This document shows, piece by piece, positions 15,051 to 21,451 of a stretch of DNA of 24,384 bases. How positions within the stretch are numbered: the stretch's first letter is position 1; the number at the start of each line of letters is the position of its first letter. This DNA comes from a virus, in the IMG/VR virus record IMGVR_UViG_3300042564_001687, positions 1-24,384 of that record; one strand, written 5' to 3'. The position numbers were made by a program, and so were the translations under genes. Below the pieces are notes generated by a model. That model made no database searches. It had not been told where the DNA came from and saw only the letters and a list, made by a program, of their open reading frames with translations.

Positions 15051-15850
15051 AAATCGAACAAGGACTAGGCAAAACGTATTACGAGCGCACAGCGACCCCT
15101 TCAGACCCCAAAGCGGGGCCTGTGTCAAAGTCTATGCTGTGGGATTTTAACAAGTCTGCGTTTAAATGGCGGCACAGCAAGCCAAGGGAGGCATCGAAGG
15201 CAATGGATCTGGGGACGCTTATCCACGCCGCAACGCTGGAGCCGGAAACCGTGGAAGACATCATCGCAATCTCTCCCTACGCAGATTTCCGCACAAAGGA
15301 AGCCCGCGAGTGGAAAGCGGCACAGGCCGAGTTAGGCAAAATCATCACGTCACGAGATGAAATCGACAAAGCCCTCTCCATTGCCGAGGCCGTCACGGAT
15401 GAATACCACTTGCAATTCGATGCCAGATATAAAACCGAGGTCGCCGTTTTTGGCAAGATCGGGGCAACAGAGGTAAAAGGACTAATCGACATCGTGCCGG
15501 ATGGGTTGGACTGCCTGATGGATCTCAAGACTACCGGAGAGATTGGAAGCCTAGAATCCCTCCAGCGGGTTATCGTCAACCGGGGCTATCACTGGCAAGC
15601 GGCACTCTACCTTGACCTCTGGAATGCAGCGGCAAACGAGAAGCGGACTCGGTTCGTGTTCTGCTTTGTTGAGGTTGAATCCCCGCACGAAACGGCATGG
15701 GTGGAATTATCTGAGAATTTGCTTGAACTCGGACGGGCAGGGTATATGAACGCCTTAGCCAAGTGGCAAACCTGCGTTGCAACGAACCACTGGCCGAAAC
15801 AAATCGAAGGAATCCAAACAATCGAAACACCTAAATACATCCAACAATGA
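15047..15850 (+). CDS. RecE-like PD-(D/E)XK exonuclease, 267 aa
   Basis: Matches the C-terminal nuclease domain of RecE/exonuclease VIII-type proteins: GTLIHAATLEPE (56-67, with H60), the catalytic pair D148 in KGLIDIVPDG and D159-x-K161 in MDLKTTGE, and the Q-motif YHWQAALYLD (Q184). The enzyme would resect double-stranded ends 5' to 3' to give 3' tails for ERF-mediated annealing. Length is normal for the free-standing phage form. It is followed by an SSB with a 4-nt overlap, the usual exonuclease-annealase-SSB module, although the annealase gene is 1.5 kb upstream. Confidence 0.85.
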   Translation: MKIEQGLGKTYYERTATPSDPKAGPVSKSMLWDFNKSAFKWRHSKPREASKAMDLGTLIHAATLEPETVEDIIAISPYADFRTKEAREWKAAQAELGKIITSRDEIDKALSIAEAVTDEYHLQFDARYKTEVAVFGKIGATEVKGLIDIVPDGLDCLMDLKTTGEIGSLESLQRVIVNRGYHWQAALYLDLWNAAANEKRTRFVFCFVEVESPHETAWVELSENLLELGRAGYMNALAKWQTCVATNHWPKQIEGIQTIETPKYIQQ

Positions 15851-16164
15851 AACAAACAATTGACATCAGCCTAGACGTTAGCAAGATCGACAAGACGGCT
15901 CTTTACGAGTCGCCAAAGACTGGGAAGAAATACCTGAGTATCTCGGTGCTTATCCGGGATGAAAAGGACCAATACGGAAACGATGGGTTCATCGTCCAAA
16001 AGATCAGCAAGGAACGTAAAGCATCTGGTGAAAAGGGGCCAATTCTCGGAAACGCGAAGATCATGGACTGGGATGCACCAAGGCAAAGTATGCACGGAAG
16101 TGAGAAGTCGAACGGGTATGCACCGCAAGCTCAGGACGATGACGATTCCGAAATCCCGTTTTGA
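15847..16164 (+). CDS. SSB-like single-stranded DNA-binding protein, 105 aa
   Basis: It has strand-rich sequence (IDISLDVSKIDKTALYESPK; YLSISVLIRDEKDQYG; GFIVQKISKE) compatible with an OB fold and, decisively, a C-terminal acidic tail ending DDDDSEIPF (97-105), the SSB C-terminal tip that recruits repair and replication proteins. Many phage SSBs of this size have little sequence similarity to bacterial SSB but keep the tail. The start overlaps the exonuclease stop (ATGA). Confidence 0.75.
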   Translation: MKQTIDISLDVSKIDKTALYESPKTGKKYLSISVLIRDEKDQYGNDGFIVQKISKERKASGEKGPILGNAKIMDWDAPRQSMHGSEKSNGYAPQAQDDDDSEIPF

Positions 16165-16183
16165 GTTATAATTATAAACCAAC

Positions 16184-16399
16184 ATGGAAATTGAAATTTT
16201 AACGCCAGTTGACGCACACAAAAACGGCTATTTGTCATTAACAACTCCCTACAACCAAGAAAACCCGCAGGATGTTGAGTGGATGCGAACGGTGATAAAC
16301 GACCTGAAGGGGTGCAAAATCGTCCTAGTAGAAGTGATCGGTGGCCTTGAGGTAGCGCGTCACAAATCTGAAATGATCCTCGCAGGGCAACGTATATGA
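16184..16399 (+). CDS. Hypothetical early protein, 71 aa
   Basis: A small alpha/beta protein: MEIEILTPVDAHKNGYLSLT, then ENPQDVEWMRTVINDLKG and a strand pair. No recognised motif. A TATAAT-like word (16167-16172) lies just upstream but no matching -35 is visible, so an internal promoter is doubtful. The stop overlaps the next start. Confidence 0.6.
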   Translation: MEIEILTPVDAHKNGYLSLTTPYNQENPQDVEWMRTVINDLKGCKIVLVEVIGGLEVARHKSEMILAGQRI

Positions 16400-16602
16400 G
16401 CGACCTATTCCCAGAAACAGGAGGCAACTTGTCCCCTCGCCTTAAATGGCAGGAAGACAAGCGAATCAAAACGCTGCGACGAGAAGACGGAAAGTGGGTC
16501 GCTTTCAAATCCGAGACCAGCCACAGCTACACCGACGAGGTGGAACTGGACGCAGTGATCGGACTCGCAAAGAAGCTAAAACTTAAACTTTGGAACGAAT
16601 GA
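16396..16602 (+). CDS. Hypothetical early protein, 68 aa
   Basis: ATGA overlaps at both ends. MSDLFPETGGNLSPRLKWQE followed by a basic middle (KRIKTLRREDGKW) and a helical C-terminus (LDAVIGLAKKLKLKLW). Not recognised; perhaps a small DNA-interacting protein. Confidence 0.6.
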   Translation: MSDLFPETGGNLSPRLKWQEDKRIKTLRREDGKWVAFKSETSHSYTDEVELDAVIGLAKKLKLKLWNE

Positions 16603-16943
16603 ATCCTGAACAACAACGAATTGCCATCGCGGAGGCGTGTGGGTGGACTAAGATCAGACTTCACCCTCGATGGGTAAGCGATATTGGAAGCGAATTTCCG
16701 CCCACTCTTTGTGGGACACACCCAAGCAAAGGCAGACCTGAAGGAATCCCTTGGTGGGGGCCATTACCAGACTACCTCAACGACCTCAACGCGATGCACG
16801 AAGCGGAGAATGTGCTGACGAACGAACAATGGTGGTTGTTTGTGGAGTTTCTTACTGAAACCCGTGGTGGTGGTGTAGCTCTTTGTATTTCAGCCACCTC
16901 CGCTCAACGCGCAGAGGCCTTTTTAAAAACACTGAACCTATGA
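16599..16943 (+). CDS. Phage ABA-sandwich-like protein, 114 aa
   Basis: MNPEQQRIAIAEACGWTK, then a variable loop, PDYLNDLNAMHEAENVL and the C-terminal ATSAQRAEAFLKTLNL form a pattern I associate with phage ABA-sandwich proteins (alpha-beta-alpha, unknown function, very common in phages). The start at 16599 is set by the ATGA overlap; an in-frame ATG at 16590 lies inside the previous gene. Its 3' end is partly repeated downstream at about 17385-17430 (see the duplication finding). Confidence 0.65.
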   Translation: MNPEQQRIAIAEACGWTKIRLHPRWVSDIGSEFPPTLCGTHPSKGRPEGIPWWGPLPDYLNDLNAMHEAENVLTNEQWWLFVEFLTETRGGGVALCISATSAQRAEAFLKTLNL

Positions 16944-17338
16944 AAACCATGAATAAAGACACACCTGAATCCAATAAAGCAAAAATTGCGTTTACCTCGC
17001 TGTTTGCAAATGATGATGCCTACTGGATACCATACACAGTTGGCACGAAGCTCGAACGCGAGCGCAACGAGGCGCGCGAAGATTTGAAATTCAAAGAGAA
17101 GTTATGCGCCGAGCTGACGAAACAGCTACGCAAGGAGCAACAGCTGCATGTCCAGACTCTGAACGAGCGGGACGAGGCGCGAAAGATCGCCGCAGAACTC
17201 CGCGAGGCGCTGCAATTCGTGGCGACCGACAAAATCGCCAACGCTGCGGACATGCGCTGCCGCGCCGCTCGCGCACTGGAATTTTGTCCCGAGAACGAAA
17301 AAAGCCCATGCGCGGGCGCAACTAAAATGAAATCATGA
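16940..17338 (+). CDS. Coiled-coil protein with KLERERNEAR repeat, 132 aa
   Basis: The start overlaps the previous stop (ATGA); an alternative ATG is at 16949. After DTPESNKAKI the protein is a long heptad-rich coiled coil: KLERERNEAREDLKFKE, then QLHVQTLNERDEARKIAAEL. A 'TPET/S ... KLERERDEAR' pattern recurs in hypothetical phage proteins I associate with Verrucomicrobiota-type genomes. It is a paralogue of the next gene. Structural or scaffold role unknown. The C-terminal end (FCPENEKSPCAGATKMKS) looks unstructured. Confidence 0.65.
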   Translation: MKTMNKDTPESNKAKIAFTSLFANDDAYWIPYTVGTKLERERNEAREDLKFKEKLCAELTKQLRKEQQLHVQTLNERDEARKIAAELREALQFVATDKIANAADMRCRAARALEFCPENEKSPCAGATKMKS

Positions 17339-17685
17339 AAACGAAATCCTGCCGAAAATGCTCACCCCAAGGCAAACGCTGCGACTGTCCAACGAGCCGA
17401 GGCCTTTCTCAAAACACTGAACCTATGGAAACCATGACAGACACACCAGAGACAGACGGGGAATGGAATCGGCTCGCTTGCCAAGACCACCCGGAATTTG
17501 AACGGAACCTAGCTGACTTCGCCCGCAAGCTCGAACGCGAGCGGGACGAGGCGCGGAAGTGGGGGTGCATGCGAGTTTTTCAGCTGGCTCAGGAGCGGGA
17601 CGAGATCCGCACCCAGTTGCGTAAGGAACAACGGCTGCATGTCCAGACGCTTAATGAGCGAGACGAGGCGCGGGAAATACTTTAA
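17335..17685 (+). CDS. Coiled-coil paralogue, 116 aa; start uncertain
   Basis: From M34 (17434, MTDTPETDGEW) it is a shortened, diverged copy of the preceding protein: KLERERDEARK, EIRTQLRKEQRLHVQTLNER and DEAREIL. The longer start (17335) has the A-rich leader and ATGA overlap and adds a Cys-rich segment (SCRKCSPQGKRCDC) plus a stretch translated from the old 3' end of an ABA-sandwich gene in a new frame (SRGLSQNTEP). This therefore looks like a fusion made by duplication; either start is possible. Confidence 0.6.
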   Translation: MKTKSCRKCSPQGKRCDCPTSRGLSQNTEPMETMTDTPETDGEWNRLACQDHPEFERNLADFARKLERERDEARKWGCMRVFQLAQERDEIRTQLRKEQRLHVQTLNERDEAREIL

Positions 17686-17696
17686 CACATGAAGTC

Positions 17697-18119
17697 ATGA
17701 GAACTATAATTGGGATAGATCCCGGAACCAATGGAGGAATCGCATGGATCACAGACGGGAAACCCTGCGTGGAGAAAATGCCTGACACGTTGCAGGACTT
17801 GTGGGAGCTACTCCGTGACATTGCCGTCGAAGGTCAATGCATGGCGTATCTTGAGCAAGTTCATAGCTCGCCACAGATGGGGGTTGTCTCAAGCTTCACC
17901 TTTGGCAACGGCTTCGGACGCCTCGAAATGGCACTGACAGCAGCGGAAATCCCCTTTGAACGTGTCAGGCCGCAAGTCTGGCAAAGGGCAATGGGATGCA
18001 TGACCAAGGGCGATAAGAACGTCTCAAAGCGCAAAGCTCAGGAGCTATTCCCGAACATCAAGGTGAATCACGCAATTGCAGACGCACTACTAATCGCAAC
18101 CTATGGAACCAGACAATGA
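17697..18119 (+). CDS. RuvC-like Holliday junction resolvase, 140 aa
   Basis: The RNase H-like fold of RuvC-type nucleases is visible: IIGIDPGTNGGIAWI with catalytic D8, AYLEQVHSSPQMG with E53, and HAIADALLIATYG with H125 and D129. Length matches phage resolvases. It would cleave four-way junctions and branched DNA to finish recombination or prepare concatemers for packaging. A mini-ORF (ATGAAGTCATGA) precedes its ATG. The stop overlaps the next start, and a copy of its last 13 codons lies at 18359-18400. Confidence 0.85.
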   Translation: MRTIIGIDPGTNGGIAWITDGKPCVEKMPDTLQDLWELLRDIAVEGQCMAYLEQVHSSPQMGVVSSFTFGNGFGRLEMALTAAEIPFERVRPQVWQRAMGCMTKGDKNVSKRKAQELFPNIKVNHAIADALLIATYGTRQ

Positions 18120-18355
18120 AATATAGAGAAACAAACCACTATTACCTGAAATGCTTTCACGATGAATTTGGGCGCGAAGTAGATTCTCTTTTAGATGGAA
18201 TTGAAAGTAATAAAATCCCGAAAGGACTTGAGCATTACGGAGTGGCTATAAAGAGTAAAAATCAATGGCTTAGGGTTTACTTCTCAGTTAAATCCAACGA
18301 GTTTTATTTAGAAGGATTTGATTCGGAAGGAAATCTAGCGCACATTATGCTATGA
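18116..18355 (+). CDS. Hypothetical inserted gene, 79 aa, AT-rich
   Basis: MKYRETNHYYLKCFHDEFGR onward, with two strands (VAIKSKNQWLRVYFSV, NEFYLEGFDSEGN), perhaps a small beta-sheet protein. Base use is visibly more AT-rich than its neighbours, and it lies exactly between the resolvase stop and a second copy of the resolvase's final codons. This points to insertion of the gene at the resolvase 3' end. No known family. Confidence 0.65.
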   Translation: MKYRETNHYYLKCFHDEFGREVDSLLDGIESNKIPKGLEHYGVAIKSKNQWLRVYFSVKSNEFYLEGFDSEGNLAHIML

Positions 18356-18358
18356 TCC

Positions 18359-18400
18359 GCTGACGCATTACTAATCGCCTCATACGGGGCAAAACAATAA
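18359..18400 (+). pseudogene. Remnant of a second resolvase 3' end
   Basis: These 42 nt translate to ADALLIASYGAKQ and a stop, against ADALLIATYGTRQ and a stop at the end of the intact resolvase (18078-18119), with 10 of 13 residues identical. The codons differ at third positions, so it is not a recent tandem copy but probably the original end displaced by recombination with a related phage. It has no start of its own. Confidence 0.75.
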
Positions 18401-18414
18401 ACGAAATAAACGAA

Positions 18415-18675
18415 ATGACACCAATTGACAGAAATCCAGATATTGATCTCGACAAAGAAGAAATTCCTGCTGGGATGAACCTCGTTGAAGGGAAATGCCT
18501 AATGCACACAGCCAGATCGAATAAAATTCCTTTTGGGGTAGCTTCAGCAAGAAGCACTGAATCCAAGAACTCAAGGAGGGACACAATCGGACTAATTATC
18601 CGAGACTCCGATCTTGAGCGATTCAAGAAAGCCGTGGAAAAGAAGATTGAAAAAAGATCATTGAAAAACAAATAA
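18415..18675 (+). CDS. Hypothetical early protein, 86 aa
   Basis: Leader ATAAACGAAATAAACGAA. It has an acidic N-terminus (DRNPDIDLDKEEIP) and a basic helical C-terminus (LERFKKAVEKKIEKRSLK). No motif recognised. It lies between the resolvase region and the nucleotide-pool gene. Slightly AT-rich. Confidence 0.6.
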   Translation: MTPIDRNPDIDLDKEEIPAGMNLVEGKCLMHTARSNKIPFGVASARSTESKNSRRDTIGLIIRDSDLERFKKAVEKKIEKRSLKNK

Positions 18676-18680
18676 TATCT

Positions 18681-19010
18681 ATGAATCCCAATGACCCAAA
18701 AGGCGCGGCTGGCGCACTCAAGACGCCACTAGGATTAATCCCTCCTTGTGCGATGAACCAAACCGCGCTTGTTCATAAATTTGGAGCCTCTAGATATGGC
18801 CCATTCAACTGGCGAGATACCGGAGTATGCGCTTCAACATACGTGAACGCTATCATGCGCCATTTGAACGCGTGGAGAGACGGAGAGGATCTCGACCCCG
18901 AATCAGGAATCTCTCACATAGCGCACATTGCTTGTAGTTGCAACATCCTTATGGATGCGGACTACTGCGGAACTTTGATGGACGACAGAAACAAAGCACA
19001 AAACAAATGA
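18681..19010 (+). CDS. dATP/dGTP pyrophosphohydrolase-like protein (DUF5664 family)
   Basis: A 109-aa protein with the family signature TPLGLIPPCAM (about 15-25), HKFGASRYGPFNWRD (32-46), the helix YVNAIMRHLNAWRDGEDLD with the acidic/His metal-site pattern, and ESGISHIAHIACSCNILMD. This all-helical family, related to MazG-type pyrophosphohydrolases, is annotated as a dATP/dGTP diphosphohydrolase N-terminal domain in phages. It would hydrolyse dNTP to dNMP and pyrophosphate in the phage-infected cell, possibly to shape nucleotide pools. No PurZ-like gene is present in this window, so a modified-base genome is not shown. Confidence 0.8.
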   Translation: MNPNDPKGAAGALKTPLGLIPPCAMNQTALVHKFGASRYGPFNWRDTGVCASTYVNAIMRHLNAWRDGEDLDPESGISHIAHIACSCNILMDADYCGTLMDDRNKAQNK

Positions 19011-19216
19011 ACAAAACAATTGCAAAATTACAGGAACGAATCGAGGAACTTGTTTCCGAAAACGAAGCGTGGAAGAAAGAAGCAGAACGCTGGCGTGACA
19101 TGTATATTGAATTCGATGAAATGCTTGAAAAAGATCTTGAGAAGGCCAAGACGCGCATTGAAAATGTAACGGCCAAAATCAAATCTCTGGAAAAAGAAAT
19201 TAACAACAACTACTAA
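19007..19216 (+). CDS. Coiled-coil mini-protein, 69 aa
   Basis: The start overlaps the previous stop (ATGA), so 19007 is chosen over an in-frame ATG at 18938. The protein is one long coiled coil (NKTIAKLQERIEELVSENEA, then EKAKTRIENVTAKIKSLEKE). It could be an oligomerising partner or regulator. Unknown family. Confidence 0.6.
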   Translation: MNKTIAKLQERIEELVSENEAWKKEAERWRDMYIEFDEMLEKDLEKAKTRIENVTAKIKSLEKEINNNY

Positions 19217-19219
19217 AAC

Positions 19220-19420
19220 ATGAAGCCCAATTACTATCAAATCATCAGGGAATGCGTTGAAACAGGAACCCGTCACGGAGTGTCCCGAGCACATAAGCAT
19301 ACCGATGACCCGCCATACGACGTTATTGAAACCTGCGTTCAGGACGCGATTATGCTTGAAATCACAACTAAATTTAGCTTTGCTCCATGCGAAGACGAAA
19401 TCAACTACCAAGAACTATGA
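19220..19420 (+). CDS. Conserved phage hypothetical protein, 66 aa
   Basis: MKPNYYQIIRECVETGTRHG, RAHKHTDDPPYDVIETCVQD and a C-terminal helix form a small helical protein of a type I recall in phage early regions, function unknown. The His/Asp-rich middle could bind metal. The stop overlaps the next start. Confidence 0.65.
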   Translation: MKPNYYQIIRECVETGTRHGVSRAHKHTDDPPYDVIETCVQDAIMLEITTKFSFAPCEDEINYQEL

Positions 19421-19620
19421 AAAAAAGCGTAATCGAAAAATTGGAATCATGGCTGTGGCGCGGTTATGGAATCACTCAGCTTCAGGCACTTGAGAAGTGG
19501 GGCTGTATGCGACTATCCGCTAGGATCAACGAACTGCGGAAGATCGGAATGCCAATCATCACGCATACCATCAAGCAAAACGGCAAGAGCTTCGCCAAAT
19601 ACACAATTACAAAACCATGA
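19417..19620 (+). CDS. Winged-helix (HTH_39-like) DNA-binding protein, 67 aa
   Basis: The start overlaps the previous stop (ATGA), favouring 19417 over an in-frame ATG at 19387. The sequence SWLWRGYGITQLQALEKWG, then MRLSARINELRKIGMPIIT and a strand pair (NGKSFAKYTI), fits the small phage winged-helix family (helix-turn-helix plus wing, 'ITxxQALxxxG..RLxARIxxLRKxG'). It may be an early transcription regulator. Confidence 0.75.
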   Translation: MKKSVIEKLESWLWRGYGITQLQALEKWGCMRLSARINELRKIGMPIITHTIKQNGKSFAKYTITKP

Positions 19621-19922
19621 CAAGACAAGAAGTAATTCAAAAGCAGACTGACGAAATCATGGATGAATTTGATTTCGAGCTAGTCAGGAAGATGTTTGAG
19701 GAAAACAAGTGGACCTATCACGGGAAGCTTGAAACCCCTTCGCTTGGAGAACTAAGGAAGCTAGCAAGACAAGTCATAAGAGGCGCAGCCGATGAGGGGT
19801 ATTGCTTTTCTGGGAGATTCTCCGCAGTTTGCGCCGAGGACTCTGACGAGAAGTGGTTGCGGCTAAACCTCATGTTTACCCCGACAAGCTGGTTCATTGA
19901 TGAAGGGGAGGTATACGAATGA
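19617..19922 (+). CDS. Hypothetical early protein, 101 aa
   Basis: ATGA overlap at its start and at its end. Residues 1-60 are helical (MTRQEVIQKQTDEIMDEFDF; SLGELRKLARQVIRGAADEG) and the C-terminus is strand-rich (FSAVCAEDSDEKWLRLNLMF). I do not recognise the family. Confidence 0.6.
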   Translation: MTRQEVIQKQTDEIMDEFDFELVRKMFEENKWTYHGKLETPSLGELRKLARQVIRGAADEGYCFSGRFSAVCAEDSDEKWLRLNLMFTPTSWFIDEGEVYE

Positions 19923-20095
19923 GCGCAGGAAAGGGCGATACGCCAAGACCCGTTGATGCGAAACGCTACGGGGAAAACTACGACAACATATTCAGAAAGT
20001 GGCAAACTACACAAAAGACAACGGATTTAGAATCATCGCAGGAAGACCAAGACACAAACCATGGGAGCAACGAGTTACCGCCACATTTCGACTGA
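19919..20095 (+). CDS. 'GKGDTPRPVD' phage protein, 58 aa
   Basis: The start overlaps the previous stop (ATGA). The N-terminus (GKGDTPRPVD, RYGENYDNIF) is a pattern very common in small phage proteins, though the function is unknown; the tail is acidic and Ser/Gln-rich. Its last 97 nt overlap, out of frame, the start of the next gene. Too short for many gene finders. Confidence 0.65.
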   Translation: MSAGKGDTPRPVDAKRYGENYDNIFRKWQTTQKTTDLESSQEDQDTNHGSNELPPHFD

Positions 20096-20298
20096 CCTAC
20101 GAGACTTACCAGCGAATCCAGAGACTTGCCAAGAGGGAAAGAATTATTCCATCAAAAGCACTGGAATTACTGGTAAGAACCGCTGAATCAGAAAGAATCG
20201 AGCCGACGCAAGTAGTGGACTACACCAAGATCCACCACAAGAGCAGTTATTCCTGTTCAAACATTTTAGACAAACACTTCAACAACATAAGCCAATGA
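19999..20298 (+). CDS. Ribbon-helix-helix-like DNA-binding protein, 99 aa (GTG start)
   Basis: Read from GTG at 19999 (AAA GTG GCA AAC). Residues about 25-60 (VTATFRLTYETYQRIQRLAKRE, followed by RIIPSKALELLV) have a strand plus two helices as in CopG/MetJ-type ribbon-helix-helix proteins, which bind operators as dimers. The first 30 residues overlap the 58-aa gene in another frame; no good ATG exists in this frame nearby, so a later non-ATG start is possible. The stop overlaps the next start (ATGA). Confidence 0.6.
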   Translation: MANYTKDNGFRIIAGRPRHKPWEQRVTATFRLTYETYQRIQRLAKRERIIPSKALELLVRTAESERIEPTQVVDYTKIHHKSSYSCSNILDKHFNNISQ

Positions 20299-20582
20299 AA
20301 CTAAACGAGAAACAACTAAAAATGATTATTGATGCTCACGTCGCCTTGGGGATAGCGACCGACAAAGCATTTGATGCGGGATGCCTTGACATAAACGGGC
20401 CACTTTTCGACGCTGTTTGGCGTGGATTTGAGAGAGTGGTGAGCGTGGTGGATGACGGCGCATGGATCTCATGGTTTGTTTATGACAACGACATGGGAAA
20501 AAAAGGCTTGAGCGTCACGATCAACGAAAAGAAAATGAAGGTCAAGACAGTAAAGGCACTCCTAAAAATAATGAACTCATGA
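20295..20582 (+). CDS. Hypothetical early protein, 95 aa
   Basis: ATGA overlap at both ends. An alpha/beta protein (LKMIIDAHVALGIATDKAFD; RVVSVVDDGAWISWFVYDND; KKMKVKTVKALLKIM). No motif recognised. It directly precedes the PP-loop enzyme, so may act with it. Confidence 0.6.
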   Translation: MKLNEKQLKMIIDAHVALGIATDKAFDAGCLDINGPLFDAVWRGFERVVSVVDDGAWISWFVYDNDMGKKGLSVTINEKKMKVKTVKALLKIMNS

Positions 20583-21451
20583 AATTATTCGATCCACCAC
20601 CACCAACTCAATGGAACGTCCTGAATCTCGGGGCTGGAGTGCAGTCATCTTGTCTCGCCCTGATGGCAGCTAAGGGAGAAGTGACACCAATGCCGGACTT
20701 TGCGGTATTTGCTGATACTCAAGCAGAGCCACAGAGCGTTTACGATTGGCTTGACTGGCTGGAAAAGCAGCTACCCTTTCCCGTTTATAGGGTCACGAAA
20801 GGGAATTTGGAAGATGATAGCCTTAAGCCTGCGGTGGCAACAGCCAGAGCATTACATTATGACGAAGGAGAGGAATATATGCGGCGCATCATCCCTGTGT
20901 TTGGACAACTTCCAAACGGGACTAAGACGGCGGCGATTGGACGAAGTTGCACCGCCGACTACAAGATTAGAGTGATTGAGAAGAAGATTATCGAAAAGTG
21001 CGGGATAACTCGCGGTCAGAAAGACACAACCGTGACACAGTGGGTTGGGATCTCATGGGACGAGATGCAGAGAGCCAAAAACGCCAGACTACCTTGGACT
21101 CAGATTCGGTGGCCTCTTATTGAAAAACAGATGAAGAGACACGCCTGTCTCCAGTGGATGAGGGATAATGGTTATCCAGAACCACCAAGATCGGCTTGTG
21201 TTTGGTGTCCATTCCATTCCGATACTGAATGGCGCAGACTCCGAGATGAAGAGCCAATGGAGTTCCAGAGAGCCGTGAAATTTGACAGGGATGTCCGCGA
21301 GTTATCCAGAAAAGACAGGGCGATGAACATGACTGTTTACTTACACAATTCCTGTAAACCACTTGACGAGATAGATTTCGACTCCGACGAGCAAAAGGGA
21401 CAACAGGTTTGGGACTTCCAAGCCGAATGTGAAGGGATGTGCGGAGTATGA
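20579..21451 (+). CDS. PP-loop / PAPS reductase-like phage enzyme, 290 aa
   Basis: The N-terminus carries a PP-loop-type nucleotide site, NLGAGVQSSCLALMA (residues 16-30, variant of SGGxDS), followed by the adenine-nucleotide alpha-hydrolase strand FAVFADTQAEPQSVYDWLDW. Conserved Cys are C124 (GRSCTADYK), C190, C207 and C210 (SACVWCPFHSD), suggesting a zinc or iron-sulfur site. The phage family is widespread but its substrate is unknown; related enzymes activate sulfate, or modify DNA or tRNA. It overlaps both neighbours by 4 nt. Not a sulfur-assimilation gene by context. Confidence 0.8.
   Translation: MKLFDPPPPTQWNVLNLGAGVQSSCLALMAAKGEVTPMPDFAVFADTQAEPQSVYDWLDWLEKQLPFPVYRVTKGNLEDDSLKPAVATARALHYDEGEEYMRRIIPVFGQLPNGTKTAAIGRSCTADYKIRVIEKKIIEKCGITRGQKDTTVTQWVGISWDEMQRAKNARLPWTQIRWPLIEKQMKRHACLQWMRDNGYPEPPRSACVWCPFHSDTEWRRLRDEEPMEFQRAVKFDRDVRELSRKDRAMNMTVYLHNSCKPLDEIDFDSDEQKGQQVWDFQAECEGMCGV

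Follow-up and report, generated by a model that had tools for sequence, protein, structure and literature searches.

A probable mosaic joint behind a phage resolvase gene, with a captured gene and a readable scrap of the displaced gene end

Gene insertion at phage mosaic joints

Phage morons in the strict sense carry their own promoter and terminator (PMC3029335; definition also in PMC2629481). Where phage mosaics bear traces of homologous exchange, these are in most cases confined to one side, and recombination genes of the exonuclease and annealase kind allow exchange between diverged phage sequences (PMC3945230). Gene 68 of mycobacteriophage Island3 is the nearest published case that has been found for the locus described here. 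This inserted gene of 85 residues lies behind another gene and is absent in a relative. Its last 18 residues (about 50 bp) copy the end of the upstream gene, a feature which has been attributed to repeated-end recombination (PMC3029335).

The window, a stretch of 24,384 nucleotides of viral DNA (IMG/VR record IMGVR_UViG_3300042564_001687), holds a case of the same kind behind a RuvC-like resolvase gene, with better evidence for its direction. It has been compared with 71 IMG/VR contigs encoding a relative of the resolvase, which are designated below by L numbers. As in Island3 (PMC3029335), there is an inserted gene and, beyond the cargo, a copy of the upstream gene's end. In Island3 the inserted gene has this copy as its own C-terminus, fused in frame, whereas in the window the copy is a seemingly untranslated scrap past the inserted gene's stop. 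Unlike for Island3, polarity can be argued, as several diverged relatives show the empty state and one phage has a donor-type order. The locus also resembles the mosaics of relaxed homologous recombination associated with Rad52-like recombinases, given that one boundary lies in diverged homologous sequence and that the phage encodes an Erf-like annealase and an exonuclease VIII; what sets it apart from those mosaics is that at its other boundary a remnant of the replaced gene end can still be read (PMC3945230). Few phage mosaic joints are young enough and untidy enough to reveal how they were formed. In this one the displaced end is legible, relatives with the empty state and one with a donor-type order are known, and homology is found on one side but apparently not on the other. 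Though an ordinary phage mosaic joint, it is unusually legible and well suited as a calibration case for gene capture.

Two copies of the resolvase end

The features of the locus, all on the + strand, are as follows.

17697..18119, +: RuvC-like Holliday junction resolvase of 140 residues, a hybrid (PHROG 1770, E 3.6e-27; split-likelihood; sliding identity)
18078..18119, +: present, probably incoming, resolvase end, ADALLIATYGTRQ-TGA (sequence comparison; ATYGT type elsewhere)
18116..18355, +: AT-rich, probably captured gene of 79 residues, its ATG overlapping the resolvase TGA as ATGA (homologue behind the L006 resolvase; GC content)
18356..18359, +: right junction (TCCG) with possible CCG microhomology (L006 homology ends; L003 homology from 18359)
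18359..18400, +: scrap left from the end of the acceptor's resolvase, ADALLIASYGAKQ-TAA, lacking a start codon (42/42 match to L016)
18401..18414, +: leader ACGAAATAAACGAA of the acceptor, preceding the next gene (common to L003 and L012)
18415..18675, +: gene of 86 residues, directly behind the resolvase in relatives that lack the 79-residue gene (relatives' gene order)

The last 14 codons of the resolvase (18078-18119), with the bases GCAGACGCACTACTAATCGCAACCTATGGAACCAGACAATGA, translate as ADALLIATYGTRQ and a stop, and the second copy (18359-18400), with the bases GCTGACGCATTACTAATCGCCTCATACGGGGCAAAACAATAA, as ADALLIASYGAKQ and a stop. The two share 31 of 42 bases, including an identical core of 10 bases (TACTAATCGC), and 10 of 13 residues, the three changes (T/S, T/A and R/K) being conservative; at the codon level there are five synonymous differences, three residue changes and different stop codons. 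In a six-frame scan of the whole window the second copy had a BLOSUM62 score of 51, against 30 for the next best place, and its DNA is identical to the genuine resolvase end of L016 at 42 of 42 bases and to those of L003, L022 and L065/L066 at 41 of 42. Judged by these scores and identities, the match between the two ends far exceeds chance. A reading of the sequence alone had described just this layout, with the resolvase's 3' end present twice, many silent differences between the copies and a 79-residue gene between them starting on the resolvase stop, and the comparison bears it out in each respect.

The present end is of a type (ATYGT) that is also found in L006, L009, L011, L017, L024 and L028. 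The scrap shares its frame with the 79-residue gene and is separated from it by that gene's TGA stop and one codon (TCC); since it lies behind these and lacks a start codon, its translation is not expected. Within IMG/VR the scrap is carried by the window and by two contigs that are 99.9% identical to it, not by many genomes as the same sequence-only reading had allowed for as a counter-case. These near-identical contigs come from other IMG datasets and show the same junction, which makes an assembly error unlikely. A scan with the motif [AS]D[AS]LL[IL], which shorter scraps would escape, detected no similar scraps at other loci.

The inserted gene

The 79-residue gene has a GC content of 35.4%; the resolvase has 51.8% and the window 48.9%. 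Its homologue behind the L006 resolvase is likewise AT-rich (35.6%), so both copies, at about 35.5% GC, stand beside resolvases of about 51.5%. The two proteins are 57-58% identical, the L006 homologue having seven extra C-terminal residues, and the dN/dS of the pair is about 0.31; therefore the protein is probably made and kept. In the collections searched, the family was found at no place other than the window type and L006: no relatives of the protein were detected in phages, plasmids, Pfam, PHROGs, PADLOC or, by sequence, PDB, nor in GTDB species genomes by a peptide pattern search. The predicted model (window 18116-18352) has one helix and four strands at a pLDDT of 73 and no fold match to it reached significance; its resemblance to Bacillus YkuJ (E 0.3, TM 0.49), a small protein that has been modelled with NusA, is weak, falls short of significance and is a lead at most. 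The sole base difference from L002 within 15501-20000 falls in this gene, at 18212 (Lys33 to Glu).

Like phage morons, this is an extra gene of differing base composition that lies between genes adjacent in relatives. Unlike them, it starts on the resolvase stop, appears to have been acquired together with its neighbour's end, and shows no promoter or terminator of its own on the + strand of 17711-18414 in a scan of the sigma-70 type only. The earlier label of moron-like therefore holds for the extra gene and its odd composition, while the overlapping start and the lack of detected signals make the term fit only loosely.

A resolvase with two affinities

PHROG 1770 covers residues 1-139 of the resolvase (E 3.6e-27), and cleavage of Holliday junctions is the activity predicted from this profile match. 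No relative of the resolvase was found in GTDB species genomes, and no DNA relative of the stretch in 50,697 phage records. The two parts of the gene differ in their relatedness. Up to about 17872 the 5' part has 4 mismatches in 176 nucleotides against L003 (172/176), whereas the 3' part (17873-18119) has 44 in 247 (203/247). The best single split by likelihood lies at 17873, with a permutation p of 0.0005 (0 of 2000 permutations equalled it). Codon differences from L003 number 5 of 59 before the split and 37 of 82 after it, 29 of the 37 being synonymous. The 5' half of the L003 gene is 97.7% identical to the window, and its 3' half, at 82.5% to the window, is nearer to other phages (L014, L016, L007 and L004, 85-87%), which indicates an exchange inside the resolvase gene. 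Among the relatives there is no close donor for the 3' part, the best being 81-84% identical, and L003 itself could be recombinant there; the position of the left breakpoint is thus an estimate. That the window was the recipient of the end with the 79-residue gene follows from the joint at 18359. There may have been more than one exchange. The sequence-only reading had placed the recombination inside the resolvase end; it does fall within the resolvase, though with its left point about 200 bases before the duplicated end.

Empty and donor-type arrangements

Uninterrupted relatives ending in ...GAKQ and lacking the 79-residue gene had been proposed as a check, and their absence as grounds for giving up the idea. 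When this check was run on IMG/VR, at least six were found, joining the ...GAKQ end to the same downstream gene. In L003, L012, L014, L022, L065 and L066 the resolvase ends in ...YGAKQ-TAA; a leader of the type acgaaataaacgaa comes next, and directly behind it the homologue of the 86-residue gene. Scrap and leader together are identical to L003 at 58 of 59 bases and to L012 at 57 of 59, and from 18359 onward the window is 95-96% identical to L003 over 1.9 kb.

The other unrecombined arrangement is represented by L006, where the resolvase (...ATYGTKQH) is followed immediately by the homologue of the 79-residue gene and no second resolvase end comes after it. L006 aligns with window 17697-18359, resolvase and 79-residue gene included, at 73% identity, and the alignment ends at 18359. 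The window thus changes partner sharply, being of L006 type up to 18359 and of L003 type from 18359. The sequences at the joint are ...CTATGATCCGCTGACGCA... in the window, ...CTAGGAGTCCGATCACTT... in L006 and ...GCAACCGCTGACGCA... in the acceptor-type L016. The two sides share no more than three bases (CCG), which suggests that the right joint is non-homologous. Since the actual donor is not among the contigs compared, L006 being only 73% identical and its homologue having the additional residues, the exact right-hand donor sequence is uncertain, and a short homology there is conceivable.

Proposed origin of the joint

Taken together, these comparisons argue that the window carries a mosaic joint at which a 79-residue gene was captured along with an incoming resolvase end, the acceptor's old end being left behind, a reading to which we assign a probability of about 0.88. 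The recombinational capture with the old end as debris, as first read from the sequence, is thus supported by the empty relatives and by the donor-type L006. Both crossovers and the order of events, as we infer them from comparison, would be as follows. The acceptor phage would have had a resolvase ending in ...ADALLIASYGAKQ-TAA, with a short leader separating it from the 86-residue gene, and the donor would have been a related phage with a resolvase ending in ...ADALLIATYGTRQ-TGA, its stop overlapped by the 79-residue gene. The left crossover was presumably homologous and within the resolvase gene, 17873 being the best single estimate, so that the resolvase would have stayed a full-length hybrid. 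The right joint would be nearly non-homologous: donor sequence just past the 79-residue gene would meet the acceptor's resolvase where 14 codons, counting the stop, were still to come. The outcome would be the 79-residue gene in the slot, with the acceptor's last 42 bases left as untranslated debris. Such a near-random right joint may have been retained because the resolvase is whole and the next gene keeps its native leader. The window's genes include an exonuclease VIII (a RecE-type exonuclease) and an Erf-like annealing protein; these, together with the resolvase itself, are plausible agents of the exchange.

The capture could have taken place as described and the second end been retained for a function, for instance as a leader or in translation coupling for the 86-residue gene. 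The scrap shows no decay, with its 42 of 42 bases identical to L016 and 41 of 42 to L003, and it stands directly before the downstream gene's native leader. This conservation is nonetheless uninformative, as a flank at 95-96% identity predicts only about two changes in 42 bases, and in L004 the 86-residue gene follows another gene with only a short leader-like stretch retained. A function for the scrap is thus considered unlikely.

The polarity may also be turned around, with the interrupted state ancestral and the L003-like phages having lost the 79-residue gene by recombination between the two ends. These form direct repeats (31/42 identical), and their deletion would leave a GAKQ end joined to the downstream gene; in the Island3/Brujita case such a deletion could not be excluded by the authors (PMC3029335). 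In the present case, however, the empty state is found in several diverged relatives (L012, L014, L022, L065/L066), GAKQ ends are joined to other genes as well (L016, L084, L090), and the scrap occurs in three near-identical contigs only and has no visible decay, all of which renders a loss very improbable.

That a small mobile element brought in a substitute end, inserted itself at the 3' end of the resolvase and so restored the gene, with the old end displaced beyond it, is the least credible explanation: islands do integrate at gene ends, the order of new end, cargo gene and displaced old end is the expected product, and the 10-base core is common to both ends, but the insert measures only about 281 bases and holds no known mobility gene family, the ends differ at 11 of 42 bases rather than being identical att repeats, no Rfam family and hence no known intron lies near the site, divergence from L003 already sets in about 200 bases ahead of the duplicated end, and the L006 homologue follows a normal resolvase with no second end.

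Variable segments around the resolvase

The slot behind the resolvase is a hot spot in this phage group, the first genes behind the resolvase belonging to 27 families in 63 relatives, and the present case points to it as a site of gene capture. Behind one and the same kind of resolvase end stand the 86-residue gene, MKELIEQIKQWG... (L016, L084) or MTLNADNW... (L090), and in L004, L005, L007 and L046 a gene beginning MRQINPT... lies behind the resolvase with an ATGA overlap as in the window. The conserved resolvase end may conceivably serve as a docking sequence, the following gene being swapped repeatedly through recombination inside the resolvase, although we hold this only tentatively. If so, a recombination gene would itself supply the homology arm, and would thereby make the site next to it more variable than any other slot of the early region.

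The MRQINPT... gene, of about 120 residues (L004 5423-5788; same slot in L005, L007 and L046), runs at its end into a CAAAACAATAAACGAAATG-like stretch that resembles the acceptor's resolvase end and leader and is perhaps a short boundary homology. At 20283-21447 the window has a second clean difference from L003/L004, consisting of an ORF of 95 residues and a PAPS-reductase-like gene of 290 residues (PHROG 424); the flanks of this segment are about 96% identical to L003 on both sides, and the flanking genes are adjacent in L003/L004. Another variable segment, upstream of the resolvase (16617-17665), differs from L003 though both flanks match, and in both the window and L003 it contains ORFs with repeated ERDEAR-like motifs.
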